A program made the translations under genes and the position numbers. A stretch of DNA of 64,000 nucleotides from Denitrobaculum tricleocarpae (GTDB taxonomy: Bacteria; Pseudomonadota; Alphaproteobacteria; Kiloniellales; Kiloniellaceae): NCBI RefSeq assembly GCF_007004665.1, contig NZ_ML660059.1, forward strand, positions 248,001 through 312,000, written 5' to 3'. This document shows positions 3,921 through 49,752 of this stretch, piece by piece. The notes beneath the pieces are model-generated. The model did no database searches and was not told the origin of the DNA. It saw nothing but the letters and a program-made list of their open reading frames with translations. Positions within the stretch are counted from its first letter, which is position 1; each line of letters begins with the position of its first letter.

Positions 3921-6305
3921 CTATCGGCGCCCGTAGCTTCTGGCCGCCTTGGCGAACCAGGTTTTGGCCTCCGCGGAGTCCGTCGGCACACCGCGTCCCG
4001 TGAGATACGCCTGCCCCAGCTTCGCCTGAGCATCGGCAATACCCTGCTCGGCAGCCAAACGGTAAAGGCGGGCCGCCTCCTCAAGGTCCTGCTCAATCCC
4101 GAGGCCTTTATCATACAAATTGGCGAGACCAAGCTGTCCTTGGCCATTCCCCTGCCCGCTTGCGAGACGATAGTACCGCAAGGCCTCGGAAAAATCGCGC
4201 TCCACAACAATTCCCTGCTCGTAGAGCTTGGCCAGTTCCACCTGTGCCCAGCTGAATCCCGCTTCGGCCGAGAGCCTGAAAAGACGCAGGGCTTCGACCT
4301 GATCCTGCTCGACACCAAGACCATCCAGGTGCAGCTTGCCGAGCTCGTATTGAGCTCCGGTGCGCCCCTGTTTTGAGGAGCGGCGAAACCACTTGGCAGC
4401 CTCGCTTAAGTCCTTTTGCGTTCCGCGCCCCTTCAAGTAGGCACGGCCGAGAAAGTATTGCGCGTAATCATCATCTTTTTCGGCCGCGAGGTGGAGGAGC
4501 CGCAAGGCTTCAACTCGATCTCGATCCGGTTCATCGGCATAGGTGTAGTAATAGGCCAGCTTTCGCTGCGCGACAGCGTAGCCTTGCTCGACGGCAAGTT
4601 TGTAAAGGCGTACGGCCTCACGGGTGTTTTGCTCGACACCCAGTCCATCTTCATAAAGCTCGGCAAGACTGGTTTGCGAATACTCACTGCCCTGATCGGC
4701 GGCCTGCCGGAAAAACCGCGCCGCCTCCGCGTAATCCTGGGCGACGCCCTTGCCATCTCTGTAGAGAAACCCGAGATAGTCCTGAGCGAGAGCATCTCCG
4801 GCATCCGCCGCCAGTTGAAAAAGCCGCGCGGCCTCGGAATAGTCATGCTTGACCCCCTTGCCCGAGAAGTAAAGGGTACCGAGCCTGTATTGAGCATTGG
4901 ACTGGCCCTGCTCTGCAGCGAGATTGTAAAGACGCGCGGCTTCTTCGTAGCTCTGGAGAACCCCTTCACCGAATTCGTGGAGATACCCCAGATCATACTG
5001 AGCACGCGCGTAGCTCTGATCGGCAGCCAGCTTGTAGAGCCGGGCCGCCTCAGCAAAACTCTGCGCGACTCCCTTCCCCTCGTAAAAGAGGTCGCCGAGG
5101 TTGGTCTGGGCGCTCGCACGCCCCTGGTCGCTGGCAAGCCGATAGAAGCGGGCGGCCTCCTCATAGTCTTGCTCCACGCCGAGCCCGTGCTCATAGAGAT
5201 TGCCCATAAAACTCTGGGCACGTGCATGATTCTGCCCTGCGGCAAGCCTCAGCAGGCGGGCAGATTCAGCATAGTCTTGCTCAACGCCTCTACCTCGGTA
5301 GTAAAGGTCAGCAAGATTGGTTCGAGCGTTAACGTTGCCCTGTTCGGCAGCGAGACGGTAGAAGTGAGCGGCTTTTAGGTAGTCTTGGGCAAATCCCTCG
5401 CCAAGCTCGTGAAGATAGCCGAGGTAATTCTGCGCGCGCGCGTAGTCCTGTTCCGCCGCCTCAGTGAGCAAGCGCACAGCCTCGGCAAGGTCCTGCTCAA
5501 CACCCTGTCCTTCGTAGTAGAGATTAGCGAGACTGGTTAGTGCAAAGGGGTCTCCCTGTTCCACGGCCAAGCGGTACAGGCGGATGGCTTCGCCATAATC
5601 CTGTGGGACACCCTTGCCGGACTCGTAAAGGTAAGCCAGCGAACTCTGGCCACGGTCAAAACCCTGATCGCTGGCCAATGTGTATAGCTGCGCAGCCTTG
5701 GCATAATCCTGTTCGACACCATGACCTTCGTAATAGAGGTCGCCAAGGTTGACCTGCGCGTAAGCTTCGCCATGGGAGACCGCAAAGCGGTAGAGCCGGA
5801 CGGCCTTCTCGTAGTCTTGCGGAACGCCTCTCCCGGTCTCGTAGAGATAGGCGAGAGAACTCTGGCCGTAGTAGTCGCCCTGATCCGCGGCCAGGCGATA
5901 GAGGCGCGCCGCCTCCTCATAGTCTTGTTCGACACCTTCGCCGAACTGGTAAAGCCGCCCCAGAAGGCTCTGTGCGTCCGCATTGTTCTGCGCGACAGAC
6001 AGCCGCAGGTAATGCACGGCCGCGGGCAGATTCTGCCCGACTTCCCAGGCATAATAATAATGCCGCGCGAGCCAGTACTGAGCTTCCGCATCCCCCTGGT
6101 CGGCACCACGTTTGTAAAACCCGAATGACCGCTGGTTTTTCCGGTGACTGCCGTCGTGTTCGAAATCTTCGGCGAGACCGGCCAAAAACATTGGGTTTGC
6201 CGGCTTTTCCGTGGTTGGGATGTTGTACCACGGCATGGCTGCAACCGGCGTCAAAGTCCAGACGGCCATCATCGCCAAGCCGCCGCCCAAGGCACGCAAC
6301 ACCAT
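3921..6305 (-). CDS. Large secreted Sel1-repeat (SLR) protein, about 20 repeats
   Basis: The 794-aa product starts with a signal peptide (MVLRALGGGLAMMAVWTLTP, cleavage near VAA-MPW) and is then built almost entirely of 36-residue Sel1 repeats of pattern A-LG-LY--G-GV-QDY-EAARLY-LAA-QG. I count about 20. Such alpha-solenoids are protein-interaction scaffolds, here expected in the periplasm or outside. From about residue 100 the repeats alternate between a YLYE/YLHE type and a DLYYEG type, so the duplicated unit was two repeats (72 aa, 216 bp). The start at 6305 is preferred over an upstream start at 6377 because it directly begins the signal peptide and aligns with the start of the paralogue just upstream in the transcription direction. 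The partner is unknown. Confidence 0.85.
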   Translation of the reverse strand: MVLRALGGGLAMMAVWTLTPVAAMPWYNIPTTEKPANPMFLAGLAEDFEHDGSHRKNQRSFGFYKRGADQGDAEAQYWLARHYYYAWEVGQNLPAAVHYLRLSVAQNNADAQSLLGRLYQFGEGVEQDYEEAARLYRLAADQGDYYGQSSLAYLYETGRGVPQDYEKAVRLYRFAVSHGEAYAQVNLGDLYYEGHGVEQDYAKAAQLYTLASDQGFDRGQSSLAYLYESGKGVPQDYGEAIRLYRLAVEQGDPFALTSLANLYYEGQGVEQDLAEAVRLLTEAAEQDYARAQNYLGYLHELGEGFAQDYLKAAHFYRLAAEQGNVNARTNLADLYYRGRGVEQDYAESARLLRLAAGQNHARAQSFMGNLYEHGLGVEQDYEEAARFYRLASDQGRASAQTNLGDLFYEGKGVAQSFAEAARLYKLAADQSYARAQYDLGYLHEFGEGVLQSYEEAARLYNLAAEQGQSNAQYRLGTLYFSGKGVKHDYSEAARLFQLAADAGDALAQDYLGFLYRDGKGVAQDYAEAARFFRQAADQGSEYSQTSLAELYEDGLGVEQNTREAVRLYKLAVEQGYAVAQRKLAYYYTYADEPDRDRVEALRLLHLAAEKDDDYAQYFLGRAYLKGRGTQKDLSEAAKWFRRSSKQGRTGAQYELGKLHLDGLGVEQDQVEALRLFRLSAEAGFSWAQVELAKLYEQGIVVERDFSEALRYYRLASGQGNGQGQLGLANLYDKGLGIEQDLEEAARLYRLAAEQGIADAQAKLGQAYLTGRGVPTDSAEAKTWFAKAARSYGRR

Positions 6306-6514
6306 CAACTCAACCCCAAAGCCGTAACGCCGAGAAACCGTGACACACCGGAAAACCCGAAGCATCCCGAACAGCAACTATGCCGCCGGCAGACCGGTTT
6401 TGCTACCCCCCTGCAACCCTGAAGAGCTTGATAGCCGCTCAACGGAAGCCTCCAAACCCCGGCACAAGAGCTCGGATGAACGCCCCCCGCGATCAGTGGT
6501 TTGCTGCGAGAAAT

Positions 6515-8245
6515 TTATTTTCGCCTGTAACTCTTCGCAGCCTTGCCAAACCATTTTTTTGCCTCGTCAGCGTCTTCCGGCACGCCGTGCCCGCTCAAGT
6601 AGGCCTGTCCCAATTTGGCTTGCGCGACCGCAATTCCGCGCTCGGCTGCAATACGGTACATGCGGGCGGCTTCTTCCGGATCTTGATCGACACCCTGTCC
6701 CTGATCATACAGTTCAGCCAGGTGAACATACGACCAGACCTGACCGCCATCCGCGGCAAGACGCAACCAATGAATGGCTCGCTCGATATTCTTTTCCGTG
6801 CCGCGCTCTTCGATATAGGCCATAGCGAGCAGATACTGAGCATCGGCATCATTCTGCTCCGCCGCCAACTTGAACAAACGCAGTGCCTCGATGTAGTCGC
6901 TGTCGGGGCCCTCGGCAAAGGTGTAATGACGTGCCAACATGCGCTGCGCCCGCGCGTCATCTTGGTCGACGGCAAGCTTTAGGAGACGTATCGCCTCAGG
7001 GTTGCTTTGCGCAACGCCGTGACCGGTGAAGTGAAGCTCGGCAAGCTCAGTCTGCGCATACGCGTTCCCTTGCTCGACCGCCAGGCGATAGAGACGTGCA
7101 GCCTCCGTGTAGTCACGGCGAACACCCCTGCCTGTCTTGTACATGTGTCCCAGATGGCTGTGAGCTTGCACATGATCTTGCGCTGCAGCCAGTTTGAACA
7201 GCCGTGCGGCCTCGGCATAATCCCTCTCAACACCCGTACCGTGAAAGTGGAATTTGCCGAGTTCATATTGGGCATCTACGTTGCCCTGTTCCGCCGCCAG
7301 TCGATACCAGCGCGCAGCCGTGTGGTCGTCTTGTGGCACGCCTTTGCCGAGCTGGTAGAGGTACCCGAGGCCATATTGAGCGTCGGCGTTGTTCTGATTA
7401 GCCGCCAGCCCATATAACCGCGCAGACTCGGCAAAATCGATCTCCACGCCCTCGCCGTGATAGTAAAAACCGGCCAATTTCTCCTGTGACCAGGCATTCC
7501 CGCCGTCAGCCGCCTGACGGAACAAGCGCACTGCTTGCGCAAGATCCTGTTCAACGCCCTGACCTTCGTAAAAATGCACCCCCAGTTCGGCGAAGGAAGC
7601 GGCGTGGCCCTGTTCGGCGGCGAGACGGAAGAGCACCAGGGATTTCGCAAAATCGGGGGCGACGCCACGGCCGTATTTATAACCGTAGCCCAGTTGGTAC
7701 TGCGCATAGGCACTGCCCTGTTCAGCCGCCCGCCGGAAGAGGCGCATGGCCTCAACGTCGTCCTGAGGGACGCCCTCTCCGAGTCTATGGAGAAATCCAA
7801 GCGAATTCTGGGCATCTACATCGCCCGCATCAGCCGCCAATTTGTAGTACTCGGCCGCAGAATGGTCATTGCCGGCGTATCGGTAATAATTTCCGATAAC
7901 ACGCTGGACCCTTGCTTTAAACTGCAAGAGGCTTTGCCAGTAGGACTCGGCGACCTTGCGAAGCTTCTGAAGAAAGCCTTTGTCATCGCTGCCGCTGGCA
8001 GAGCCATAGGGCTCAGGATCGGCTGCGCCTGCAGCAAGCTGCATACGGTACTCCTCCGCAGAAAAAGGCATTTCCGCTGCTTCTATCCGAATGGTTTTTT
8101 GTCCTGATTCCGTCGATCGTATCTCACTGACGTTTCCTGCCGTGAGCATCCCCATCGAAGCCCTGGAGTGGGGATTCGCGGTCGCATCGGCCACAGTTAC
8201 GACAGTCAGTATCGTCAATCCCCCCGCAAAAGCACGCAGCAGCAT
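6515..8245 (-). CDS. Secreted Sel1-repeat protein, paralogue of the adjacent gene
   Basis: The 576-aa protein has a signal peptide (MLLRAFAGGLTILTVVTVAD), a linker of about 110 residues without repeats, then about 12 Sel1 repeats. The last repeats match the neighbouring 794-aa protein in order, including the unusual HYTFAEGPDSD repeat (its partner reads YYTYADEPDRD), the RGTEKN repeat and the terminal AQAKLGQAYL-G-GVP-D-EAK-WF-KAA-SY. The two genes therefore arose by tandem duplication and later gained or lost internal repeats. Both start regions have GGGGTTGA just before the ATG. The paralogue's stop-to-start distance is 209 bp, so co-transcription is possible but not shown. Confidence 0.85.
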   Translation of the reverse strand: MLLRAFAGGLTILTVVTVADATANPHSRASMGMLTAGNVSEIRSTESGQKTIRIEAAEMPFSAEEYRMQLAAGAADPEPYGSASGSDDKGFLQKLRKVAESYWQSLLQFKARVQRVIGNYYRYAGNDHSAAEYYKLAADAGDVDAQNSLGFLHRLGEGVPQDDVEAMRLFRRAAEQGSAYAQYQLGYGYKYGRGVAPDFAKSLVLFRLAAEQGHAASFAELGVHFYEGQGVEQDLAQAVRLFRQAADGGNAWSQEKLAGFYYHGEGVEIDFAESARLYGLAANQNNADAQYGLGYLYQLGKGVPQDDHTAARWYRLAAEQGNVDAQYELGKFHFHGTGVERDYAEAARLFKLAAAQDHVQAHSHLGHMYKTGRGVRRDYTEAARLYRLAVEQGNAYAQTELAELHFTGHGVAQSNPEAIRLLKLAVDQDDARAQRMLARHYTFAEGPDSDYIEALRLFKLAAEQNDADAQYLLAMAYIEERGTEKNIERAIHWLRLAADGGQVWSYVHLAELYDQGQGVDQDPEEAARMYRIAAERGIAVAQAKLGQAYLSGHGVPEDADEAKKWFGKAAKSYRRK

Positions 8246-8465
8246 CCCTTCAACCCCATGGCTATGAAACACCAATAAAACAGGCGGTCTTGCGGGATTT
8301 ACGCAATCCCTGGCTGAAATTATGCAATCATGGGGTTAAAATTTCTCTACCCTGTGTTGTCCTACGAACAACCTCCACGTCTGTTATGAGACGACACTGA
8401 AAAGCAAAAGATTCCAGGTTGAGAACAGACACAATTCGATCAGGGCCACCGGAGTTTAAGAGCCT

Positions 8466-18131: not shown

Positions 18132-18208
<77 letters not shown>

Positions 18209-18348: not shown

Positions 18349-19260
18349 TTATGGGGCTCTCTTCACGGCGCGGTACATCAGGTAGCCTCCGGGCAAGGCC
18401 CCCAGATACATCAGGATACCGTAGACAGCGGCGGGCAGAGCGATGACCGGCAGCGCTTCCGGCCCGGCATGCAGAATGCCGGCCAGGGTGATCGCCACGG
18501 TGCTGTTCTGAATGCCTGTTTCCATCCCGATGGCCGCGCGGTCCGGGGCGGACAGGCCGACGAGGCGGGCAATGACCCAACCCAGGGCCAACAGGCACAG
18601 CACCATCAAGGCCGTCATCGGGGCCAGGGTGGCCCAGTTATCGGCCAGAACACTCCAGGATGCGGCAATCGCCCCGACAACAATGACCACGAAGAGAACC
18701 GCGGCGATCACCGAAAGCACCGGTTCGATGCGCAAGGCAAGATCCTTCGCAATCGCCCGGATGATCATCCCGATCGCGACAGGCACCGTCGTGATGGCAA
18801 ACATCTTCAGGGCCAGACTGGTCACATCGACGGTGACGTCGCCGGCATTCAGGAACAGCCCCGCCCAGAACACCACCAGCAAGGGCACGGTGATGACCGA
18901 CAAAAGGCTGATCAGCCCGGTCAGGGAAATGGACAACGCCAGCGTGCCGCCAACCAGTTTGGTCAGGATGTTCGACGTCACACCCCCCGGGCTGGCCGCC
19001 AGCAGCATGAACCCGAAGGCGAGTTCACCGCTGATCCCGAAAGCAATGACAAAGCTGTAAACAATGACCGGCAGCAGGATGACCTGCGCAGATAATCCCG
19101 CGATGACGGCACGGGGCTGGCGGACAATGCCTGCGAAATCCGCGACAGTGAGGCCGAGCCCCAACGACAGCATGATGATGCCCAAGGAGACCGGCAGAAA
19201 AACTGAGACAACTGCGTCCACGCTTTGAATCCCTGAGATGAACCTGTTGCGCACGACCAT
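18349..19260 (-). CDS. Bile acid:sodium symporter (BASS/SBF) family transporter
   Basis: The 303-aa membrane protein has about nine to ten helices. Diagnostic segments are the repeated core elements LLAASPGGVTSNILTKLVGG (unwound helix 4 equivalent) and METGIQNSTVAITLA (the GIQN motif of helix 9), which form the sodium and substrate sites in ASBT-like folds. It should import an organic anion with sodium across the inner membrane; bacterial substrates include pantoate, 2-keto acids and taurocholate, and this one cannot be resolved. It is divergent from the TRAP cluster, so its promoter shares the 219-bp gap before 19480. Confidence 0.9.
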   Translation of the reverse strand: MVVRNRFISGIQSVDAVVSVFLPVSLGIIMLSLGLGLTVADFAGIVRQPRAVIAGLSAQVILLPVIVYSFVIAFGISGELAFGFMLLAASPGGVTSNILTKLVGGTLALSISLTGLISLLSVITVPLLVVFWAGLFLNAGDVTVDVTSLALKMFAITTVPVAIGMIIRAIAKDLALRIEPVLSVIAAVLFVVIVVGAIAASWSVLADNWATLAPMTALMVLCLLALGWVIARLVGLSAPDRAAIGMETGIQNSTVAITLAGILHAGPEALPVIALPAAVYGILMYLGALPGGYLMYRAVKRAP

Positions 19261-19479
19261 ATCCGTGGATGGGGGATCTTTGTCAAACGTGAAGCGCGGT
19301 GAGATTCAGATTTCGCGCGTAAGCCGCGGTCTCGGGACGCCTGCCAAACCTGCCCGCACTCCAGTCCCAATCACAAAATAGGATGGATACGATCAGAATT
19401 GGTGATCAATAGTTACAAAAAATGACGATTTGATTTTATACCTCGACGACTGCACTCTCGATGAACAGGGGAATGCGGA

Positions 19480-20340
19480 ATGGCACAGCAAACGATAAAA
19501 GGCGAGGCGGAGTATTCCAGCCTCCTGAACCAGCCGCTTGAGAGCGTTCGCGACGCGATCCGGGCGCAGGCCTACCGGGGGCACACCGCGGGGCTTTGCA
19601 GCGGGAACCTGCAGTGCAATCTGGTTATTCTGCCGCGTGCGCTCGCGGATGACTTTCAGCGCTTCTGCGAGACGAACCCGAAACCCTGCCCGCTGGTCGG
19701 GGTCTCTGAACCCGGCCGGCCCTGCTTTCAGGATCTCGGCCGCAACATCGATCTGCGGACCGACGTTCCCCGCTACTACATTTACAAGGACGGGCAGCGC
19801 GCCGGGCAAAGCCACGACATCTCGGACTATTGGCAGGATGACTCCGTCGCCTTTGCCATCGGCTGCTCCTTCACCTTCGAGGGCGCATTGGCCGCGGAGG
19901 GCATATCCCTGCGTCATGTAGAGCTCAACCGCACGGTGCCCATGTACCGGACCAACATCATGACCAAACCGGTCGGCAATTTTTCCGGACCGATGGTCGT
20001 CAGCATGCGCCCGATGAAGCAGGGGGATCTGCAGAAGGTCTGTGAGATCTGCGCCCGCTATCCCCACTCCCACGGCGAACCGGTCCACACCGGCGACCCG
20101 GCCGCGATCGGCATCGGCGATATCGGCGCGCCCGACTGGGGCGACGCGGTCCCGATCGCGGAGGACGAGGTCCCGGTCTTCTGGGGTTGCGGCGTGACCA
20201 GCCAGGTCGCGATCGGAAATGCCAAGCCGGCGCTCTGCATCACCCATGCACCGGGCTGTATGCTGATCACCGAAATCAACGAAACATCGACGATGCTCAA
20301 GGAACAAGCCGTAGCTCTTGAGCATGAAACTTCACTATAA
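19480..20340 (+). CDS. DUF1445 putative hydro-lyase (UPF0317 / D-glutamate cyclase-related)
   Basis: The 286-aa protein matches the DUF1445/YcsI family end to end: HTAGLCSGNLQCNLVILP, FCETNPKPCPLVGVSEPG, DLRTDVPRYYIYKDG, VAFAIGCSFTFEGAL, RTVPMYRTNI and the C-terminal ITHAPGCMLITE. Bacterial members are annotated as hydro-lyases; the same domain is fused in the mammalian mitochondrial D-glutamate cyclase. Conserved Cys residues cluster in several motifs. GGGGAATGCGG lies before the ATG. It leads the operon with the TRAP genes, 17 bp apart, suggesting that it acts on the imported substrate. Confidence 0.88.
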   Translation: MAQQTIKGEAEYSSLLNQPLESVRDAIRAQAYRGHTAGLCSGNLQCNLVILPRALADDFQRFCETNPKPCPLVGVSEPGRPCFQDLGRNIDLRTDVPRYYIYKDGQRAGQSHDISDYWQDDSVAFAIGCSFTFEGALAAEGISLRHVELNRTVPMYRTNIMTKPVGNFSGPMVVSMRPMKQGDLQKVCEICARYPHSHGEPVHTGDPAAIGIGDIGAPDWGDAVPIAEDEVPVFWGCGVTSQVAIGNAKPALCITHAPGCMLITEINETSTMLKEQAVALEHETSL

Positions 20341-20357
20341 CGGCAAGGAAAAATGCA

Positions 20358-21398
20358 ATGAAAATCGGAACAGGGTTACTGGCATTGAGTTTGACCGTGG
20401 CGAGCGCGGCGGCTGTTGCAGACGACGAGCTCGCGATTGTCGGAAGCTGGAGCGGTTTGCCGCTTCATAAGCAATATGAAGCGCCTTTCTGGAACGACAA
20501 ACTTCCGGAGGCCAGCGGCGGGCGGATTTCGACATCTCTGACGACCCACGATCAGATGGGCATCAAGGGTTCGGATGTCTTCCGCATGCTCGGTGACGGC
20601 GTCTTCGATGTGGGCATGACGGTGGCGGACTACGCCGTTTCCGATGCGCCTGCCCTCGAAGGTCTGGACGTTCCCCTGATCGCGACGGACGCAGCCTCCG
20701 CCATGAAAATGGTGCAGGCAGCCCGTCCGCTGGTCGACGATATCTACAAGGATGTTTTCAACGCCAAGGTTCTGGGCATCGCCCCTTACCCACCGCAGGT
20801 CGTCTTCTGCAATGCTGAAATCAATGGCCTGGCGGACCTGGAAGGCAAAAAGATCCGCGCCTCGGGCCGCATGACCGCGAAGCTGCTGGAAGCCCTGGGC
20901 GCAGAAGGCGTCACCATCGGCTTCGGCGAAGTTCCCGGCGCACTGCAGCGCGGCGTGGTTGACTGCGCCGTCACCGGGGCGGGCTCTGGTTACAGTGCCG
21001 GCTGGTGGGAAGTCTCCACCCATCTGATGCCGATCCCGCTGGGCGGTTGGGATCCGGTGGTCACCGCGATCAACCTCGACAAGTGGAACGCCATGAGCGC
21101 CGACGACCAGGCCCTGCTGGAGAAGGAAGTTGCGTCCGGTCTGGAGCAACCTGCCTGGGAGACCGCCCAGAACGCCCTGGCCACGGACATTGCCTGCCTG
21201 ACCGGCGAGGGCGACTGCCCGGGTGAGAAGCGCAGCATGAAGCTGGTCACGGTCTCGGATGCGGACATCGCGAAAGCGCGCGAAATCCTGATCTCGAAGG
21301 TGCTGCCGGACTGGTCCGAGCGGGCCGGCAAGGACTGGGGCGAGCGTTGGAACGGCACGGTGGGTAAAGCCACCGGCGTCGCCATCAAGCTTCAGTAA
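20358..21398 (+). CDS. dctP: TRAP transporter substrate-binding protein (DctP family)
   Basis: The 346-aa protein has a signal peptide (MKIGTGLLALSLTVASAAAVA) and then a DctP-type periplasmic binding domain: SWSGLPLHKQYEAPFWNDKLPE, FDVGMTVADYA, and the family Arg in LEGKKIRASGRMTAKLLEALG, which salt-bridges a substrate carboxylate. GFGEVPGALQRGVVDC follows. The retained Arg implies an organic acid ligand. AAGGAAAA precedes the ATG. It is the second gene of a same-strand operon with both TRAP membrane subunits downstream. Confidence 0.93.
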   Translation: MKIGTGLLALSLTVASAAAVADDELAIVGSWSGLPLHKQYEAPFWNDKLPEASGGRISTSLTTHDQMGIKGSDVFRMLGDGVFDVGMTVADYAVSDAPALEGLDVPLIATDAASAMKMVQAARPLVDDIYKDVFNAKVLGIAPYPPQVVFCNAEINGLADLEGKKIRASGRMTAKLLEALGAEGVTIGFGEVPGALQRGVVDCAVTGAGSGYSAGWWEVSTHLMPIPLGGWDPVVTAINLDKWNAMSADDQALLEKEVASGLEQPAWETAQNALATDIACLTGEGDCPGEKRSMKLVTVSDADIAKAREILISKVLPDWSERAGKDWGERWNGTVGKATGVAIKLQ

Positions 21399-21416
21399 AG
21401 ACGAACGCACAGACTG

Positions 21417-21950
21417 ATGTCTCAACTGCTCTCCTGGCTACGGCGAATGAACGAGCGCCTGGCCGTGATCGCTGGCCTGCTTCTGCTGGCCAGCGTCACC
21501 GTCACCATCCTCGATATCATTGCCCGGCGCGTCGGCCTGTCGCTCGGCGGCACGGACGAATTCTCCGGCTACGCCATGGCCATCTCGACCAGTTGGGGCA
21601 TCAGCTACGCGCTGACCTGCATGGCGCACGTGCGCATCGACCTGCTGCGGGCCAAGGCGGCCCCGGCCGGCCGGGCGCTCTTTGACGCCATCGCCATTCT
21701 CTCGCTCGCAGGGACGGCCCTCGTGATCGGCTACCGGGTTTGGCCGGTGCTGGCCAAGACCCTCAAAAGCGGCGCGACCGCGAACACGCCGCTGGAAACA
21801 CCACTCTGGATTCCACAGTCCCTCTGGTTCGCCGGCTGGGCCTGGTTCGCGGTTTCCGCCGTTATCATCGCGCTCGCGGTTATCCTTCATATCGCCGGGC
21901 GGAAATTCGATGCAGTGGATGAAATCGCGGGTGTGAGGACCGAAGTATGA
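21417..21950 (+). CDS. dctQ: TRAP transporter small permease subunit (DctQ family)
   Basis: The 177-aa protein has four predicted membrane helices and the DctQ pattern IARRVGLSLGGTDEFSGYAM followed by TCMAHVRIDLL. DctQ pairs with DctM to form the ion-driven permease. Its stop overlaps the start of the large permease gene (ATGA at 21947), a standard sign of coupled translation in TRAP operons. Confidence 0.93.
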   Translation: MSQLLSWLRRMNERLAVIAGLLLLASVTVTILDIIARRVGLSLGGTDEFSGYAMAISTSWGISYALTCMAHVRIDLLRAKAAPAGRALFDAIAILSLAGTALVIGYRVWPVLAKTLKSGATANTPLETPLWIPQSLWFAGWAWFAVSAVIIALAVILHIAGRKFDAVDEIAGVRTEV

Positions 21951-23227
21951 TCCTCTTCACCTCCACGGGCCTGCTGGTCCTGCTCTCGTTCTCGATCCCG
22001 GTCGGCATTGTTCTCTTTCTGCTGGCCTTCGGCATCGATCATTTCTTCAGCCCCTTTCCGCTTATGCGCGGGCTGGGACAGGTCATCTGGTCCTCCTCGA
22101 ACAGCGCGACCCTGATCGCGATTCCCTTCTTCGTCCTGCTGGGCGAGGTCCTGGTGCGCAGCGGTGTCGCGCGCCGCACCTACGCGGCCCTGGACGCCTG
22201 GGTTTCCTGGCTGCCCGGCGGCCTGATCCACGCGAACATTGCGACTGCGACGCTGTTCTCGGCCACTTCAGGTTCTTCCGTGGCCACTGCCGCCACGGTC
22301 GCCTCCGTCGCCATGCCGCAGGCCGAAAAACTCGGCTACGACGCGAAGCTCTTCTCCGGCGCCATCGCGGCGGGCGGCACCCTCGGGATCATGATCCCGC
22401 CCTCGATCAATCTCATTGTCTACGGCTTTCTGACCGAGACCTCGATCCCGAAGCTTTTCCTGGCGGGTCTGGTGCCGGGTCTTCTGCTGGCCCTTCTTTT
22501 CATGGCCATGACCGCCCTTGTCTGCGGGATCAAACCCTCGCTGGGGGGGCCCGGCACGAAGGTCAGCTGGGAGCGCCGGATCGCAAGCCTGAAAGACCTG
22601 CTGCCGCTGCTTGGTCTTTTCGGTGCCATCGTGGGCTCGATCTATGCCGGCTGGGCGACCCCGACCGAGGCTGCCGCCGTCGGTGTCGGAATTTCCTTTG
22701 TAATTGCGGGCACACAAAAAGCGCTCTCACGCGAGATGCTGCTAGAGAGTCTGAAGGGGACCGTGCGTACAACGGCTCTGATCATGCTGGTGGTCATCGG
22801 CGCCTACGTGCTGAACTTCGTCCTGACCGCCGCCGGTGTCAGCCGCGCACTGCAGGATCTTCTGCAAAACCTCGGGCTTGGCGCGGTCGGCACGCTGCTG
22901 GTCATCGTCCTGATCTACATTGTGCTGGGCTTCTTTATCGAGACCCTCTCCCTGATGGTCGCGACGATCCCTATTGTGGTTCCGGTCATCGTCCAGCTGG
23001 GATACGACCCGCTCTGGTTCGGCATTTTGATGATCCTTCTGGTCGAGATGGCGCTGATCACGCCGCCGGTCGGCCTCAACCTCTATGTCGTCCAAGCCGC
23101 CCGAAAGGCGGGCAGCTTTACCGATGTCATGATTGGCGCCGCACCCTATGCGGTGGCCATGCTGGTGATGGCCGGCCTGCTGATTCTCTTCCCGGCCATC
23201 GCCCTTTTTCTTCCCTCAAATCTGTAG
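21947..23227 (+). CDS. dctM: TRAP transporter large permease subunit (DctM family)
   Basis: The 426-aa protein has about 12 membrane helices. Family signatures include GSSVATAATVASVAMPQAEKLGY, GTLGIMIPPSINLIVYGFLTE and the C-terminal LLVEMALITPPVGLNLYVVQ. It is the transport channel that uses a sodium or proton gradient to bring in the ligand delivered by DctP. Length is standard. It overlaps dctQ by four bases and is followed 11 bp later by the DUF2848 gene. Confidence 0.95.
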   Translation: MILFTSTGLLVLLSFSIPVGIVLFLLAFGIDHFFSPFPLMRGLGQVIWSSSNSATLIAIPFFVLLGEVLVRSGVARRTYAALDAWVSWLPGGLIHANIATATLFSATSGSSVATAATVASVAMPQAEKLGYDAKLFSGAIAAGGTLGIMIPPSINLIVYGFLTETSIPKLFLAGLVPGLLLALLFMAMTALVCGIKPSLGGPGTKVSWERRIASLKDLLPLLGLFGAIVGSIYAGWATPTEAAAVGVGISFVIAGTQKALSREMLLESLKGTVRTTALIMLVVIGAYVLNFVLTAAGVSRALQDLLQNLGLGAVGTLLVIVLIYIVLGFFIETLSLMVATIPIVVPVIVQLGYDPLWFGILMILLVEMALITPPVGLNLYVVQAARKAGSFTDVMIGAAPYAVAMLVMAGLLILFPAIALFLPSNL

Positions 23228-23238
23228 AGAACCCCTTC

Positions 23239-23892
23239 ATGAAGTTTATGTCGTCGGACCAGCCGGTCGATTTGGAAATCGAGCATCTTTTCGTGGCCGG
23301 ATGGACCGGGCGCGATAAAGCCGCCGTGGATCACCACATCGAGGAACTCAAGGCTCTGGGTGTCGCACCGCCATCTCAGGTTCCGCTTTTTTACCGGGTC
23401 TCCGGTAATCTTCTGACGCAAGAGACGTCAATCGAGGTTCTCGGTGAAGGCACATCAGGTGAGGTCGAACCCCTTCTTATGCGATGCGGTGGCGAGACCT
23501 GGATCGGGCTGGCTTCGGATCATACAGACCGGGACCTGGAAACACATTCCGTCGCCTATTCGAAACAGTGCTGCGCGAAACCAGCCGCAGGCGAAGTCTG
23601 GAAGTTGGACTCAGTCGCGGACCATCTGGACGATCTCGTTCTGCGCTGCTCGATCGAAGAGGAGGGCACATGGACGCTCTATCAGGAAGGGCCGCTGTCG
23701 AACATTCGACCGCTTGCCGACCTGATCAGTGCCTCGGGTTTCGGCGACAATGCGGCGATGCTCTGCGGGACACTCGGCGCAATCGGCGGTGTGCGCCCGG
23801 CGCGCAACTACCGGATGGAACTGGAGGACCCGATCTTGGCCCGCAAGATTGCGATGGCTTACAGCGTAACGCCGCTGCCGGTCGTTTCCTGA
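23239..23892 (+). CDS. DUF2848 family protein
   Basis: The 217-aa protein matches DUF2848, with LFVAGWTGRDKAAVDHHIEELKALGVAPPSQVPLFYR, the SDHTDRDLE motif and KQCCAKP. The family resembles fumarylacetoacetate-hydrolase-like proteins in length and in its SDHTDR acidic cluster, but I know of no demonstrated reaction. Gene order within a TRAP operon, immediately before a creatinase-fold protein, argues for a catabolic step on the imported compound. The distance to the next gene is 16 bp. Confidence 0.82.
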   Translation: MKFMSSDQPVDLEIEHLFVAGWTGRDKAAVDHHIEELKALGVAPPSQVPLFYRVSGNLLTQETSIEVLGEGTSGEVEPLLMRCGGETWIGLASDHTDRDLETHSVAYSKQCCAKPAAGEVWKLDSVADHLDDLVLRCSIEEEGTWTLYQEGPLSNIRPLADLISASGFGDNAAMLCGTLGAIGGVRPARNYRMELEDPILARKIAMAYSVTPLPVVS

Positions 23893-23908
23893 GCGAAAAG
23901 CATAACTC

Positions 23909-25129
23909 GTGATCTCACCCTCCGCCGGACTGACCCCTGAAACCGCCGAAGCACGCAGAGCGCAAATTCTCGCTCGCGCGACTGACGCCGGAAATGACGC
24001 AGTCCTGGTTTTCGGCTACGGCAGCGCGCTGGGGGCGGGTTCCAAATCTCATGGCACCATGCGCTATCTCACAGGATGGGACAGTCATGAGGCGACGTCA
24101 CTTCTTGTCATTAATAAAGGGGACAGAGTACTTTTCATCAGCAGTCCCTTTATGGTTCCGATCGCACGGGAGAGGCTCCAGGATGTCGAGATCATCGACC
24201 TGCGCCCATCCGAATGGGCAGCCGGCTTAAAAGCCCGATTGACCGCCACAAGGAACGTTGGAACGATTGGCTTCGACGAAATGCCGGTGTCGCTGTACCG
24301 GATGCTCACCCCGGCGCTCGAGCATCTGCGGCTACAAAGCATTGACCGCTTGCTCGGCGAGATGCAACTCATCAAGGACGAGGAAGCGCTTCAGCTTCAC
24401 GTGACAGGAGCAAAGATCTGCGATGAACTCTTCGCTGCACTCCAGAAGGAGATATCGAAGGGGACGCCCTGCTGGCAGACCCAGCTTGCCTTGGAGACGA
24501 AGGCGCGCGGACTGGGCGCCGACTACTGCCGGACCTGGCTGACCGCAAGACCGTCCGCCGATCACCCCCGCTATTGGCCGGAGGAGGGTTTGCATGTTCC
24601 GCAGCCGGGGGATCAGGTTTTGTTCGGGATTGCGCTGACGGTGGCAGGTCACTGGGCGCACGGCATTCGCATGGGCTCCATGGGGCCGGCGCCCGAACCT
24701 CATAAGGCAATGTGGCGGCTCGCCTCTGAAATGCTGGCGGCGGGCGTGGCAGCCCTGACGCCCGGTCAGGCTTTGTCCGGCTGCATGGCCGCGATCAACC
24801 AGGTGTTGTGTCGCCATACAAGCGCGGAGGAGCGAACAAGCCTTAGCGGCTTTCGCTATGGCCATGGCTTGGGCCTGTCGTACGAAGACCCCTTCATCAC
24901 CGACTGCTTTCCCCAATCCTTTGGAGCTGCAGCACCCTCCGGAATTTCCGGACCAGCCGAAGATCAGGTGCAGCCTGATTTAACGCTTCAGCCGGGCATG
25001 TTGATGGAGTTGCATCCGAACTTTTTCTCTCCGGAAAGAGGTGGCGCGGCAATCGGCGAGATGATCGTGATCCGGGAGAGCGGGGCGGAAGCTCTTCTGA
25101 AATTTCCCACCAGCTTCATGGAGCTTTGA
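23909..25129 (+). CDS. M24 (creatinase/Xaa-Pro peptidase) fold protein lacking Asp metal ligands
   Basis: The 406-aa product has the two-domain creatinase/prolidase layout: an N-terminal domain (residues about 30-140) with YGSALGAGSKSHGTMRYLTGWDSH, then a pita-bread domain. In active M24 metallopeptidases the ligands are Asp, Asp, His, Glu, Glu. Here the His (YGHGLGLSYEDP) and two Glu (MLMELHPNF and AAIGEMIVI) remain, but the FD-G and -D--R positions read LFGIAL and GHWAHGIR, so both Asp are missing. It may work without metal, as creatinase does, hydrolysing a small C-N bond. Start is GTG. It belongs to the TRAP operon. Confidence 0.82.
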   Translation: MISPSAGLTPETAEARRAQILARATDAGNDAVLVFGYGSALGAGSKSHGTMRYLTGWDSHEATSLLVINKGDRVLFISSPFMVPIARERLQDVEIIDLRPSEWAAGLKARLTATRNVGTIGFDEMPVSLYRMLTPALEHLRLQSIDRLLGEMQLIKDEEALQLHVTGAKICDELFAALQKEISKGTPCWQTQLALETKARGLGADYCRTWLTARPSADHPRYWPEEGLHVPQPGDQVLFGIALTVAGHWAHGIRMGSMGPAPEPHKAMWRLASEMLAAGVAALTPGQALSGCMAAINQVLCRHTSAEERTSLSGFRYGHGLGLSYEDPFITDCFPQSFGAAAPSGISGPAEDQVQPDLTLQPGMLMELHPNFFSPERGGAAIGEMIVIRESGAEALLKFPTSFMEL

Positions 25130-25192
25130 GCTTCACTCCGGGAAAGCGATGATAAAGTGATTGATTCAACCCGCGTAAATTCGGACATTCCT

Positions 25193-25207
25193 ATCACTTT
25201 AAGTGAT
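25193..25207. promoter_or_regulatory. Perfect palindrome upstream of the LysR gene
   Basis: ATCACTT-T-AAGTGAT is a perfect 7-bp inverted repeat around one base, 22 bp before the LysR start. A related half-site, AAAGTGATT, lies at about 25154. Symmetric A/T-rich sites of this size are typical of LysR-family binding; autoregulation is inferred. Confidence 0.55.
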
Positions 25208-25228
25208 CGCGTGCGCGGGCGTGCAAAC

Positions 25229-26095
25229 ATGACATTGGATCAGCTCAAGACATTCCTCTGGGTGTCCCGGCTCGGCGGCGTCCGGCGGGCGTCCCAGGAG
25301 ATGAACATTTCCCAGCCCGCGGTCTCGGCCCGCATCGCGGCTCTGGAGGAATCCCTCGGCACCACACTCTTCGAGCGCGCCCAGCGCGGCGTGACCCTGA
25401 CCAAGCAAGGCGTTCTGCTGCGCGACTATGCCGAGAAGATCGCCGATCTGATCGAACGCATCAAAGCCGATGTGGTGCCCGCCGAGAGCGTGAACAGCCT
25501 TTTGCGGATCGGCGTTGCCGAAACCATCGTCCAGCTCTGGCTACCGGTATTTCTTTCCGAACTCTATGCAAAGTTCCCGCAGATCAACGTCGAGGTCTCC
25601 GTCGACGTCACCGTCAATCTGCGGCAGCAACTGCTGGAGCGCTCGCTCGATTTCGCGATTCTGATGGGCCCGGTCTCGGAATTCACGGTGGATAACATCG
25701 ATCTTCCGCCGGTCGAACTCTCGTGGTTCCGCGCCACGCAGCGTGAAGAACCGGACCTGCAAACCACGCCGGTCGTGTCCTATAATCGCAATTCGCGCCC
25801 TTACCGAGAACTGCGGCGGCAACTGACGGACCGCTACGGCGACAACACCCAGATCTTTCCCTCAAGTTCGATCTTCGCGGGTCTCGAAATGGTCGCATCG
25901 GGGATCGGCGTGGGTGTCTTCCCCCGGCAACTGGGCCGGGAGATGGTCAAGCAGGGCCGTATCGTCGAGTTCGATCCCGGCTGGAAACTGACACCGCTTC
26001 ATTTCACCGCATCCTATATCGGTGATCCCAGAAACGCGCTTTGCGCCCGGGCGGCGGATCTCGCTGTCGAGGTTGCCCAAGGCTATATCGAGTAG
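25229..26095 (+). CDS. LysR-family transcriptional regulator
   Basis: The 288-aa protein begins MTLDQLKTFLWVSRLGGVRR, the canonical LysR winged-HTH start, with the recognition region ISQPAVSARIAALEESLGTTLFER. The C-terminal domain (from about residue 90) is a periplasmic-binding-like effector domain. The ATG at 25229 is chosen over an upstream GTG at 25157, since family HTH domains begin within a few residues of the start. It lies inside the TRAP/hydrolase gene set, between the M24 and amidase genes, and is the natural regulator of the pathway. The inducer is probably the imported compound or a product. Confidence 0.9.
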   Translation: MTLDQLKTFLWVSRLGGVRRASQEMNISQPAVSARIAALEESLGTTLFERAQRGVTLTKQGVLLRDYAEKIADLIERIKADVVPAESVNSLLRIGVAETIVQLWLPVFLSELYAKFPQINVEVSVDVTVNLRQQLLERSLDFAILMGPVSEFTVDNIDLPPVELSWFRATQREEPDLQTTPVVSYNRNSRPYRELRRQLTDRYGDNTQIFPSSSIFAGLEMVASGIGVGVFPRQLGREMVKQGRIVEFDPGWKLTPLHFTASYIGDPRNALCARAADLAVEVAQGYIE

Positions 26096-26105
26096 TGAGA
26101 AAGTA

Positions 26106-27386
26106 ATGGCGTATCAAAAACCCTGGTCCCCGGAAACCGCTGAAAGCCGTCTGGCCGAAGTCATGGAGCGGGTGAATTCGGGTGCGCCCGAGCTTCGGTC
26201 GGTCTTTACGGAGACCTTTTTCGACCGGGCACAGGATCAGGTTTCCAAACTTGACGAAACTGCGAATTCTCCGCTTTGCGGCGCCCTGGTCTCGGTCAAG
26301 GATCTCTTCGACGTGGAGGGGTTTGTCACCCGGGCGGGCAGCCGCATTCTAGCGGATCAGCCGCCGGCAACATCCGACGCGCCGCCCATCAAGCTGCTGC
26401 GCGAGGCCGGAGCCATTCTGATTGGCCACACCAACATGACCGAACTGGCCTATTCCGGGCTCGGCATAAATCCGCACTTCGGTACACCGGACAATGCCCT
26501 GGCCAGCGGACGCATTCCCGGCGGCTCGACCTCCGGCGGCGCAATCTCGGTCGCTCAGGGCATTGCCGACATCACCATCGGCACCGACACGGGCGGATCG
26601 CTGCGCATACCGGCGGCCTTTAACGGCATCGTGGGCTTTAAGCCGACCCAGGACAGCGTGTCGCGGCGCGGCTGCAAAGCCTTGTCACAGAGCCTGGACA
26701 GCGTCGGCCCCATGGCACGAAGCGTCGAAGCCTGCGAGATCACCTACCGGGTCATGACCGGCGGAGAGACCGACAACTCAAAAAATCTGCAGCCGGAATT
26801 TATCATGCCGGTGAACTTTGGTTTGGACGACCTCGATCCTGTGGTCGCGAAAGCCTTCGAACAAGCTGTGTCCAAAATCTCTGACGCGGGCTACGCGGTC
26901 GTTGTGAAGAACCTCGCCTGCCTGGAGCGCTACAAGGAAATTCCGGTCTGGCAGTTCGCCGCGATCGAGTCGCGCACGGAGTACGACGCCTTTTACAACA
27001 GCACACCGGAGCTCTTCGATCCGCGCGTGCTCAGCCGCCTGCAACGAGCGGACGGCATTGACGCCGTGTCCTACCGCAAGACGCTCAATGCGCGCGATAC
27101 CTTCATCGACGCGTACCAACAGGAAGTGGGGAACCGGGTTCTGCTGCTGCCGACAACGCCGATCCTGGCACCGGAACTCTCGACCTTTGACGACGACGAG
27201 GAATACTACCGGCTGAACCTGCTGACCCTGCGGAACCCCACGCTTGGCAATGTCTTAAATGGCTGCAGCATCTCACTGCCCTTCAAGTCCGGCGCGGAGA
27301 CGATCGGGATCATGCTTACAGCACCCGGCGGCTTCGATCATAGCCTTTTGGAAGCCGCGAATGTCTGCGAAGGCGCCTTGTCATAG
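26106..27386 (+). CDS. Amidase-signature family hydrolase
   Basis: The 426-aa protein has the full amidase signature with Ser-cisSer-Lys triad: Lys in VSVKDLFDVEG, cis-Ser in GGSTSGGAISVAQG and the nucleophile Ser in GTDTGGSLRIPAAFNG. It resembles GatA/AtzE-like enzymes that hydrolyse small amides; no GatB or GatC genes are near, so a metabolic rather than tRNA role is likely. The ATG at 26106 lies 10 bp after the LysR stop with GAGAAAG upstream. It closes the same-strand TRAP cluster and converges with the DUF2927 gene. Confidence 0.9.
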   Translation: MAYQKPWSPETAESRLAEVMERVNSGAPELRSVFTETFFDRAQDQVSKLDETANSPLCGALVSVKDLFDVEGFVTRAGSRILADQPPATSDAPPIKLLREAGAILIGHTNMTELAYSGLGINPHFGTPDNALASGRIPGGSTSGGAISVAQGIADITIGTDTGGSLRIPAAFNGIVGFKPTQDSVSRRGCKALSQSLDSVGPMARSVEACEITYRVMTGGETDNSKNLQPEFIMPVNFGLDDLDPVVAKAFEQAVSKISDAGYAVVVKNLACLERYKEIPVWQFAAIESRTEYDAFYNSTPELFDPRVLSRLQRADGIDAVSYRKTLNARDTFIDAYQQEVGNRVLLLPTTPILAPELSTFDDDEEYYRLNLLTLRNPTLGNVLNGCSISLPFKSGAETIGIMLTAPGGFDHSLLEAANVCEGALS

Positions 27387-28441: not shown

Positions 28442-29182
28442 TCACATCTTAAACAGCAGCGCGATGCCGCTGACAAAGACCACCGTGCTGATGATCCGCA
28501 CGTAAGCCTGCTGACTCAATTCCGTATGCACCTTTCCGCCCAGCCAGAGCCCCAGTCCGACAATCGGAAGCGCCGCGATCGACCCCAGAAACACCCCGCC
28601 CTGGAAAAGCCCAAAAATGGCGAAAGCCCCAAGGCGGATTGCGCCATCGATCAGGAAGTTGAAAGCGAAGGTGGCACGGAAGGACGTTTTATCCAGCGCG
28701 CGCAAACCCAGATAGATGACGTAAAAGGGGCCTCCGGTCCCGAAGATCGTGCCAACAAACCCACCCAGGAAACCGAAGGGCGCCGCGTAGATGCGCGACC
28801 CGCGCAGAGTGGGAAGGGGCAGGAGCTGATACACCGCGTAGATCATGACAAAGACGCCGAGGGCCTGCGCGAGCAGGGCTTCCTTTGCCATGGAAAGGAG
28901 CGCCAGACCTGCGGCAACACCTAAAAGACTAAAGGGAATCAGCGGCAGTTGTTCACCCCAGGCAATCGCCCGCCGGTTCTTCAGGCCCTGGCTTGCGGAC
29001 CCGACGTAGTCCAGGAAGACAACGACCGGAACAACTTCCTGAACGGGGAAGACCTGCGCCAAGAGAGGCACGGCAATGAGTCCCGAACCGAAGCCCGCAA
29101 TGCCGCGCACCATATAAGCCAGGAACAGCACGATTGCCGCATAGACCAGCGGTCCGGTCTCAAGATTTTCCGGGGCGAGCAC
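28442..29182 (-). CDS. TauE/SafE-family sulfite/anion exporter-like membrane protein
   Basis: The 246-aa protein has eight predicted helices and the TauE/SafE duplicated motif: YMVRGIAGFGSGLIAVPLLA in the first half and GGFVGTIFGTGGPFYVIYL in the second. Members export sulfite, sulfoacetate or other organic sulfur anions. Its GTG start follows the TAG of the upstream dioxygenase gene with no intervening base, so translation is coupled. Pairing with a TauD-type enzyme is consistent with sulfite disposal, but the substrate is not proven. Confidence 0.87.
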   Translation of the reverse strand: MLAPENLETGPLVYAAIVLFLAYMVRGIAGFGSGLIAVPLLAQVFPVQEVVPVVVFLDYVGSASQGLKNRRAIAWGEQLPLIPFSLLGVAAGLALLSMAKEALLAQALGVFVMIYAVYQLLPLPTLRGSRIYAAPFGFLGGFVGTIFGTGGPFYVIYLGLRALDKTSFRATFAFNFLIDGAIRLGAFAIFGLFQGGVFLGSIAALPIVGLGLWLGGKVHTELSQQAYVRIISTVVFVSGIALLFKM

Positions 29183-30262
29183 CTAGTCGCCAGCCCCCTG
29201 GCTTTCTGCGGCTCGCGACGCTGGCACGGTCTCCGCTTCATCAGAGGCACCCTGTTGCGGCTCGAGTTCGATACCGCCCTGACGACGATTCCAGAGGCGC
29301 AAAAGATAGCGTCCGCCTCGCGTGGCATCATCCTCAAACGCGGTGCGCGCATGGGCCAGCAGATGGTTGTTGACGTATTCGATCTGACCGGGTTCGAGAT
29401 GAAACTCAATCCGGTTTTCCGGCGCGGCGACAATCGCTTTCATCGTGCGGAGCGCCGCAGCTCCGTCATCATCGAGGCTTTCGCCCAGCAAAGCATAGCC
29501 TTTGTGCACATAGTCCGCGTAGTGACGCACGGTCAGTTGCCCGTCGCACAGGGTAAAGACAGGATGCCGGCTGCTCTTACACTCGTCCGGCGCATGCTCG
29601 GCCTGACGGTCCCACCAGAAAGGCTGGTAAAGCCGCTCCAGCAAGTCCGGGTGGCGCTCCCGCAATTCGTCGTGCGCCCTGGCCAGACTTGCCACCCGGC
29701 TGAGGCCGCCCGCGCTGGCCGGACGAAGGCAGACAAGTGTAACGATCGCCGGTGTCTGGGCGAGCCAGCCGCCGTCCGTATGGAAGTCCTGATCCAGGTT
29801 TGTAACCGAGCGGCGGACGCCGTAACCCAACTTAGCCCCCGAGTCCTTGACCTCGTAAAGCCGTGTCCCATCGGCCTTTTGTTCGACTACCGGACCGAGT
29901 AGAGAAGTGAGCATCCAGCCTATGGCCCTGGCTGCGGCTATGCCCCAACGCTCGACGGGGAGACGATCCAGCACAACGAAACCAATGCCATGGTGCAGCC
30001 TGTCGTCGACAGCCGCCATCAGCTCCCTCACAGCTTCGAGCGCATAGTCAGTAGCACTCAAATCTTCAACGGGCCCCTCATAACTGGCTAGCTTTCCCGC
30101 CAATTCATCCAGTTCCGCGAGTGCCTTAGGGGGAATCTTCAGGATCCAGTCGTCTGCTGTAAGTCCATCGGCCCGCCACGCCGAGGACGCAGTAATAGGC
30201 CTGTCCAACACTGCGGGAGCTCCAGAAACAGCTTTTGCGCCGCTTCGCATCACCCCTGACAT
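29183..30262 (-). CDS. TauD/TfdA-family 2-oxoglutarate-dependent dioxygenase
   Basis: The 359-aa protein is a TauD/TfdA fold enzyme. Iron ligands are the HTD of LDQDFHTDGGW and the distal His in NNHLLAHARTAFED; the 2OG-binding Arg lies in GGRYLLRLW. VTLVCLRPASAGGLSRV is the usual mid-domain segment. These enzymes hydroxylate taurine, alkyl sulfates, betaines or herbicide-type ethers, releasing sulfite or other groups. ATG 30262 with GGAAAA upstream is used; a TTG at 30316 would add an odd Cys-rich tail. It is the first gene of a three-gene operon with a TauE-like exporter and a DUF2927 lipoprotein. Substrate unknown. Confidence 0.87.
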   Translation of the reverse strand: MSGVMRSGAKAVSGAPAVLDRPITASSAWRADGLTADDWILKIPPKALAELDELAGKLASYEGPVEDLSATDYALEAVRELMAAVDDRLHHGIGFVVLDRLPVERWGIAAARAIGWMLTSLLGPVVEQKADGTRLYEVKDSGAKLGYGVRRSVTNLDQDFHTDGGWLAQTPAIVTLVCLRPASAGGLSRVASLARAHDELRERHPDLLERLYQPFWWDRQAEHAPDECKSSRHPVFTLCDGQLTVRHYADYVHKGYALLGESLDDDGAAALRTMKAIVAAPENRIEFHLEPGQIEYVNNHLLAHARTAFEDDATRGGRYLLRLWNRRQGGIELEPQQGASDEAETVPASRAAESQGAGD

Positions 30263-30575
30263 GATTTTCCGTTTTCGGTCGCCGCGCCGATCAACATAAT
30301 ATACGCATACACACAAAAGTAGAAGAAGACCCCCAGTTTGCTCAATAATGCTGGGATTGACAACGGCGGGTTTCAGCCCGCTCGGAGCGCGAGCGGAGTC
30401 CCCGAAGAAGTGAAAAACCGGAGCCGCTCTCTATTCTGTTTAGTTAGAAAGCCTTAGAGACCTTACCTGCAATCGTAGATCCAATTGCAGAGATTTTTGA
30501 CAGACTGGTCCCCCGCGCTCCTGATCTCGCTCTATCGCCGAGCAACCCCGGCGGCGTCCCAAATCTCAAGAGGCA
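30263..30575. other. Gene-free gap between dioxygenase promoter and kinase 3' end
   Basis: This 313-bp region contains a GCGGG/CCCGC short hairpin near 30366-30382 and an A/T-rich segment near 30430-30480. No T-run follows the hairpin in either direction. No gene is seen. Confidence 0.4.
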
Positions 30576-49740: not shown

Positions 49741-49752
49741 TCTCAAGGCACC

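Follow-up and report, generated by a model that had tools for sequence, protein, structure and literature searches.

Gene content of the operon

The window, a stretch of 64,000 nucleotides from Denitrobaculum tricleocarpae (contig NZ_ML660059.1, positions 248,001 to 312,000), carries eight genes on the plus strand between 19480 and 27386. They code for a DUF1445 protein, the DctP, DctQ and DctM components of a tripartite ATP-independent periplasmic (TRAP) transporter, a DUF2848 protein, an M24-like protein, a LysR-type regulator and an amidase (Table 1). We describe this operon here and discuss its relation to 5-oxoproline (pyroglutamate). The packed gene set proposed in the original prediction was recovered in full, with each gene at its predicted position and strand and with Pfam matches over the cut-off: D-Glu_cyclase/DUF1445 (E = 5.5e-64), DctP (8.5e-21), DctQ (2.5e-16), DctM (4.7e-85), DUF2848 (2.9e-74), Peptidase_M24 (5.6e-17) together with Creatinase_N (8.1e-9), the helix-turn-helix of LysR (2.6e-21) and Amidase (5.6e-71).

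Gaps between the genes are short: 17 bp (DUF1445/DctP), 18 bp (DctP/DctQ), 11 bp (DctM/DUF2848) and 16 bp (DUF2848/M24-like), and DctQ and DctM overlap by 4 bp. The distance from the M24-like gene to the LysR gene is 27 bp with the GTG start and 99 bp with the ATG start, and the amidase ATG at 26106 follows the LysR gene after 10 bp. A conserved block upstream of DUF1445 is a candidate operator/promoter region for the LysR regulator. It is preserved in locus L038 (genome G037) while the remaining intergenic region there diverges; in L037 (G038) the upstream intergenic region resembles that of the window over its whole length. A scan of the sequence for sigma-70 promoters and terminators gave scores no better than those of shuffled sequences.

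Table 1. Features of the operon and its upstream region (window coordinates).
Position	Strand	Feature	Basis
19391..19442	.	conserved upstream block with palindrome-like ATTGGTGATCAAT, candidate LysR operator/promoter region (predicted function)	sequence comparison
19480..20340	+	DUF1445 / "putative hydro-lyase" (PF07286, 286 aa)	Pfam
20358..21398	+	TRAP substrate-binding protein DctP, Arg167	Pfam; best PDB sequence match 2pfz
21417..21950	+	TRAP small permease DctQ	Pfam
21947..23227	+	TRAP large permease DctM	Pfam
23239..23892	+	DUF2848 protein, probably FAH-superfamily-like	Pfam, profile comparisons, AlphaFold2 model
23909..25129	+	M24-like (pita-bread family) protein, altered metal site	Pfam, alignments
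25157..26095	+	LysR-type regulator, alternative ATG start 25229	Pfam
26106..27386	+	amidase-signature hydrolase, alternative GTG start 26022	Pfam

Conservation of the gene neighbourhood

Loci (L-numbers) from the genomes compared (G-numbers) were annotated with phmmer, using one query protein per family on mechanically chosen open reading frames and counting PxpBC from 40 bits. The named DUF2848 loci are the best 80 of at least 520 confirmed relatives. DctP and DctM are both present in 54 of these 80, a set that leans to close relatives because of the way it was drawn. Among the 54 TRAP loci, DUF1445 occurs in 47 and the amidase in 37; DctM is the next gene 5' of DUF2848, in the same orientation, in 47, and an amidase follows DUF2848 within 1.5 kb in 34. 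In 31 enlarged loci, DctP, DctM and DUF2848 were found together in 15 cases, ten of them with an amidase in view and one (L042) stopping at a contig edge. The original prediction had left the conservation of the neighbourhood to be checked, and it passes this check: the core LysR-DUF1445-DctPQM-DUF2848-amidase recurs in many genera. As DctM directly precedes DUF2848 in 47 of the 54 TRAP loci, the arrangement is not due to chance. In six genomes of a single genus (G094, G170, G218, G259, G276, G346), DUF2848 is located about 46-54 kb from DUF1445 on the same contig.

DUF1445 and its linkage to 5-oxoprolinase genes

The solved homologues of the window DUF1445 protein, 3db9 and 2pif, were each deposited as a UPF0317 protein. 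DUF1445 is present in 239 plasmid records. Seven annotated contexts without DUF2848 were chosen for diversity and annotation from 60 listed records, and in all seven a 5-oxoprolinase gene is found near DUF1445 (pxpA in five, a fused hydantoinase/oxoprolinase in two). Another 29 DUF1445 loci were taken from genomes without DUF2848 (24 loci) or with an unlinked DUF2848 gene (five loci). An oxoprolinase is present in 18 of these, with 13 of the Pxp type and five fused (L227, L229, L230, L236, L248). Two of these loci are organised as LysR-DUF1445-DctPQM-oxoprolinase (L236) and LysR-DUF1445-DctPQM-PxpB-PxpC-PxpA (L237), and their genomes (G242 and G267) gave no DUF2848 match.

DUF1445 thus marks 5-oxoproline gene sets, and the same linkage is seen around DUF2848. 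Oxoprolinase genes occur in the flanks of 14 of the 54 TRAP loci (12 of 30 genus labels), compared to one of the 26 other loci, where the lone case is a contig-end fragment with DctQM. The oxoprolinase is located inside the DUF2848 operon, or after it on the same strand, in L066, L098, L059, L061, L062, L087, L091, L110 and L114, with a gap of about 0.8 kb before the oxoprolinase genes in L061 and L062. In L098 and in L059/L061/L062, the operon is continued on its own strand by PxpA, PxpB and PxpC. Pxp proteins were compared to NCBIfam for L059 only: PxpA passes a subfamily model and PxpB an equivalog model; for the third protein, the only model passed is the broader 5-oxoprolinase/urea amidolyase one.

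In the window operon, DUF1445, the transporter and a regulator gene are present together. The operon resembles the prokaryotic pxpABC set in having DUF1445 beside a transporter, and in relatives with the same TRAP type, PxpA, PxpB and PxpC are part of the operon or adjoin it. It differs in its DUF2848, amidase and M24-like genes and in having no linked 5-oxoprolinase. Since the transporter and DUF1445 belong to a widespread 5-oxoproline gene set, the operon is not the isolated undescribed pathway that had been proposed. The same proposal had related DUF1445 to D-glutamate cyclase. This activity is unproven for DUF1445 alone, as the assayed mouse enzyme, in an excerpt of PMC5339696, carries DUF1445 and DUF4392 in one protein. 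In Pseudoalteromonas (L186:5968-9208), successive genes code for a "putative hydro-lyase" of the DUF1445 type, for PxpA, for a protein labelled "glutamate cyclase domain" and for an aminotransferase of class IV; given the composition of the mouse enzyme, its two domains may be encoded separately there.

The TRAP receptor and its ligand class

With DctP, DctQ, DctM and the conserved Arg (R167) all present, the transporter is of the DctP type. The carboxylate-binding Arg that had been postulated corresponds to Arg167 in the motif KKIRASGR, and an Arg/carboxylate binding rule has been described for TRAP receptors (excerpt of PMC4646407). The top PDB sequence match of the window DctP is 2pfz (E = 2.1e-17). 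We take 2pfz and 2pfy to be the pyroglutamate receptors DctP6 and DctP7 of Bordetella pertussis. Both receptors were crystallised with 5-oxoproline, and a dissociation constant of 0.3 uM is given for DctP7 (PMC13274462 and PMC5812351, in excerpts).

In Bordetella genomosp. 1 (L125), the operon adjoins a TRAP set whose receptor is the 2pfz orthologue (E = 3.8e-178), and an oxoprolinase-like gene is also found beside the operon. Receptors of the 2pfz type occur at other DUF1445 loci as well (L225, L227, L229, L230, L233, L235). The DctP proteins of L236, L237, L239 and L240 belong to a supported clade (100/98) of 16 rows, 12 of which are from DUF2848 loci. The originally predicted import of a lactam-type, carboxylated nitrogen compound is supported, and the oxo-prolines, then one candidate among several, are singled out by the comparative evidence.

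DUF2848, the amidase and the M24-like protein

DUF2848 is probably related to the fumarylacetoacetate hydrolase (FAH) superfamily. The Pfam FAA_hydrolase model is touched by two of nine scanned DUF2848 members, both below the cut-off (E = 0.0047 and 0.016). An hhalign comparison to nine FAH-type proteins gave a probability of 39% (E = 3.2e-4, score 34.3). With 139 rows the probability was 36% and the score 34.6; the reversed profile scored 21.9 and three other families 10.9-16.8. In 20 column shuffles the top score was 16.4. With an E-value limit of 10, a profile search of the PDB gave nine sequences, the best at 0.027; one of the nine is named as a fumarylacetoacetate enzyme. Five others (1gtt, 1wzo, 4dbf, 2dfu, 1nkq) presumably belong to the FAH superfamily. 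E75, E77, D94 and K109 are invariant in 43 DUF2848 sequences and in 17 rows that include divergent members; we take them to match, in order, the E-x-E..D plus Lys pattern of the FAH metal site. The AlphaFold2 model is of high confidence, with a mean pLDDT of 93.6 and a pTM of 0.89. DUF2848 shares collinear E-x-E, D and K residues and weak profile matches with the FAH superfamily but stays below the Pfam cut-off and lacks support in one alignment setting: with -norealign -glob, the score fell to 15.6 (3%) for the same pair (alignment A5) and was a mere 8.8 (0.4%) for the 43-row alignment A2. A single-sequence search of the PDB with DUF2848, which found nothing, also speaks against the assignment.

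The genes next to DUF2848 were analysed in 16 annotated plasmid contexts, which include near relatives (two from Pantoea; Rhodococcus and Prescottella). A C-N hydrolase is encoded within about 3 kb in 13 of them and is annotated as an amidase in eight (L067-L070, L077, L167, L174, L176), as a nitrilase-family protein in four (L073, L074, L076, L175) and as a hydantoinase/oxoprolinase in one (L066). The remaining contexts are L071 and L072, with a cupin instead, and L075. Next to DUF2848, Actinomycetota and Bacillota encode a C-N hydrolase of the nitrilase family, which in Priestia megaterium (L073:9840-11000) has a C-terminal cupin-like domain (below cut-off). An ene-reductase of the old yellow enzyme (OYE) family was found by phmmer downstream in L039, L059, L061 and L062 and beside DUF2848 in L074; Pfam PF00724 confirmed it for L059 and L074, and L175 has a gene annotated identically to that of L074. 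L077 and L176 are monooxygenase clusters with a flavin reductase, a cupin-type or DUF4437 protein, an amidase and DUF2848. These partner genes are consistent with a common lactam or 2-oxo-amide intermediate, without being proof of one. In the open-access literature we found no paper naming DUF2848, nothing useful on pyrrole-2-carboxylate gene clusters and, among papers joining at least three of hydro-lyase, TRAP transporter, 5-oxoproline, pyroglutamate and D-glutamate, none on the operon by title; we do not firmly claim that the operon is absent from the literature.

The amidase has Lys65, Ser141/Ser143 and Ser165, which we take to be the catalytic Lys, cis-Ser and Ser positions of the amidase signature. 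Its best NCBIfam matches are generic amidases, below the cut-off.

The profile of the M24-like protein aligns almost end to end with pita-bread peptidases, and both domains of creatinase and related M24 enzymes are recognised. However, G240, H251, H319, H369 and G383 occupy the usual metal-ligand positions in all eight sequences, as read from alignments. The usual ligands there are presumably D, D, H, E and E, so that one of five is retained. From these residues, the M24-like protein is not a standard metallopeptidase; creatinase is metal-free, and the M24-like protein may be so too, or it may use three histidines. An M24 gene is present in only two of the best 80 named DUF2848 loci and in two of 289 genomes of the class (E<=1e-30, the window's own genome included), in a scan that scored the best few first-look candidates per genome, so that misses are possible. 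Among the examined loci, it is restricted to G000, G037 and G038 (one genus), G005, Primorskyibacter and Aquabacter. Caballeronia insecticola again combines it with DUF2848 and an amidase, there beside an ABC-type receptor. In G403 the M24 gene is near a contig end, a fused HyuA/HyuB-type gene is on the contig, and the operon is not visible there. On the basis of these counts, the M24 gene was rejected as a general part of the pathway. The original prediction, which had grouped it with C-N-cleaving enzymes, is not supported on this point: the gene is an uncommon addition, and its product is without the usual metal ligands.

Evaluation of the 5-oxoproline assignment

We consider it likely that the operon is LysR-controlled and serves the uptake and catabolism of 5-oxoproline or a close derivative. 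Several observations weigh against this. Pfam detects no 5-oxoprolinase among the genes of the window operon, and a search for PxpA in the window genome found no match. No oxoprolinase is present within the flanks of 40 of the 54 TRAP loci or in 11 of the 29 DUF1445 loci, which include the operons of the same TRAP type in L239 and L240 (none in the stretch examined, although both genomes carry PxpA elsewhere). Three fused oxoprolinase-like proteins fit caprolactamase and carboxylase NCBIfam models best, all below the cut-off, and therefore their substrate is unproven. DUF2848 also occurs without TRAP or DUF1445 genes, alongside flavin monooxygenases and cupins, which suggests a broader or different substrate for the enzymes. 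Although both are TRAP receptors and 2pfz is its best PDB match, the window DctP is not orthologous to DctP6 and DctP7: it is far from the 2pfz group, 5i5p is nearly as good a match (E = 2.2e-16 vs 2.1e-17), and the tree places the two receptor groups in separate clades with long branches. Moreover, both TRAP types lie side by side in loci of Bordetella, Achromobacter and Marinomonas (L125, L139, L147, L150, L111), and therefore their ligands may differ. In favour of the assignment, in one draw of 299 genomes DUF2848 was found in 21, DUF1445 in 43, both in 19 and PxpA in 91, with DUF1445 in 19 of the 21 DUF2848 genomes and PxpA likewise in 19 of the 21; the Fisher tests on these counts, however, ignore relatedness.

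The window genome does encode a fused OPLAH-type protein of 1211 aa as a stand-alone gene on contig C15. It is 62% identical to the in-operon protein of Sulfitobacter and is a putative 5-oxoprolinase.

Alternative explanations

The ligand could be a 5-oxoproline that is unsaturated or hydroxylated, or else the lactam form of alpha-ketoglutaramate, 2-hydroxy-5-oxoproline. In that case DUF1445 would dehydrate or open the ring, DUF2848 would hydrate or ring-open a 5-oxopyrroline, and the amidase would act as an omega-amidase releasing 2-oxoglutarate and ammonia. The nitrilase-family hydrolases adjoining DUF2848 in Actinomycetota and Bacillota point in this direction; those of L073 and L074 match the PRK10438 amidohydrolase and deaminated-glutathione amidase models best, both below curated cut-offs. 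So do the OYE-type ene-reductases that accompany DUF2848 in L039, L059, L061, L062 and L074, and the clusters of HpaB-type monooxygenase and flavin reductase that carry DUF2848 and an amidase. A pyrrole-2-carboxylate route would call for such a combination. Ketoglutaramate is, in addition, 99.7% lactam at neutral pH (excerpt of PMC9671947). However, the substrate is deduced indirectly, the ene-reductase occurs in a minority of loci, and operons with DUF1445 and 5-oxoprolinase exist without DUF2848 (L236, L237). We regard this explanation as rather unlikely.

With similarly low confidence we put forward a generalisation. A general route may exist that converts pyroglutamate in oxidised or unsaturated form (5-oxopyrroline-2-carboxylate, cyclic ketoglutaramate) into 2-oxoglutarate and ammonia. 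DUF2848 and its amidase would supply the two enzymes missing from it, and TRAP-fed pyroglutamate operons and monooxygenase-fed pyrrole-type clusters would have it in common. DUF2848 might then be a new lactam hydratase or ring-opening enzyme of the FAH fold. If so, some lineages would also have an unusual active site in the M24-fold protein, where three invariant histidines replace the acidic ligands normally found.

It is still less probable that the chemistry is of another kind, with a hydantoin, an N-carbamoyl or other acyl amino acid as the ligand, or a plain C4-dicarboxylate and enzymes with unrelated substrates. TRAP receptors bind many acids, the amidase matches only generic NCBIfam amidases below the cut-off, and the fused oxoprolinase-like proteins have their best scores against models of caprolactamase and acetophenone carboxylase, again below the cut-off. 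Linkage to PxpABC and 2pfz-type TRAP sets, which is seen repeatedly, speaks against such a chemistry.

Least probable of all is that DUF2848 and the amidase (with or without the M24-like protein) replace 5-oxoprolinase by opening imported 5-oxoproline independently of ATP, without PxpABC or OPLAH. Such a role would agree with the Pxp genes that follow DUF2848 in L087, L091 and L114, where other loci have the amidase, with L110 and L066, in which DUF2848 comes after a fused oxoprolinase and an amidase was not detected, with the linked oxoprolinase in eight of the 17 TRAP loci without amidase compared to six of the 37 with it, and with the missing PxpA match in the window genome. However, amidase and Pxp genes share one operon in L098 and L059, and DUF2848 is present in every locus with Pxp genes nearby. 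We queried 34 genomes, comprising 30 of the 31 DUF2848 genomes (G024 was left out) and four without DUF2848. PxpA was found in 27 and an OPLAH-type match of at least 62% identity in the other seven; the match is partial or split in G005 and G056, and one internal stop was reported in G306. Full replacement was therefore rejected as the principal explanation. Because all 34 genomes have one or the other, the DUF2848-amidase pair looks like an addition to 5-oxoprolinase rather than a substitute for it.

Other genes in the window

A tRNA-Arg gene (CCG, 18132-18208), a possible insertion site, is located directly upstream of the operon and of a gene for an SBF/BASS-family transporter (18349-19260, minus strand), which is divergent from the operon. 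The BASS gene is also found upstream in G038 (L037) and was not detected in G037 (L038). Downstream, a TauE-type permease gene adjoins that of a TauD-family dioxygenase (28442-30316, minus strand), which is related to dioxygenases of trimethylamine compounds and scores below curated cut-offs; the pair likewise follows the operon in L037 and L038. Also on the minus strand are an Entner-Doudoroff-type set (46442-51324) with KDPG/KHG aldolase, a dehydratase, a 6-phosphogluconolactonase-family protein and glucose-6-phosphate dehydrogenase, and two long Sel1-repeat proteins (3921-8275) with 18 and 11 matched repeats.

Proposed function of the operon

In summary, the operon is most likely a variant of a known 5-oxoproline gene set with three enzymes of unproven reaction. 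From its gene content, conservation, linkage to 5-oxoprolinase and the residues named above we infer the ligand and the following reactions. The LysR regulator would sense the acid and switch on the promoter before DUF1445. DctPQM would import the acid, with Arg167 holding its carboxylate, and DUF1445 would act on the 5-oxoproline ring system. DUF2848, probably a metal enzyme of the FAH type, might form a pair with the amidase-signature hydrolase that acts on a lactam or amide intermediate and releases ammonia, possibly helped in some lineages by the M24 protein with its altered metal site. The carbon would end up in glutamate or 2-oxoglutarate. Any L-5-oxoproline formed on the route would be finished by an ATP-dependent 5-oxoprolinase, here presumably the stand-alone OPLAH-type protein.

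This assignment of the operon to 5-oxoproline or a close derivative ties three orphan families (DUF1445, DUF2848 and the metal-site-altered M24 group) to one small ligand class. Functions that present annotation leaves blank thereby become open to binding and growth tests.

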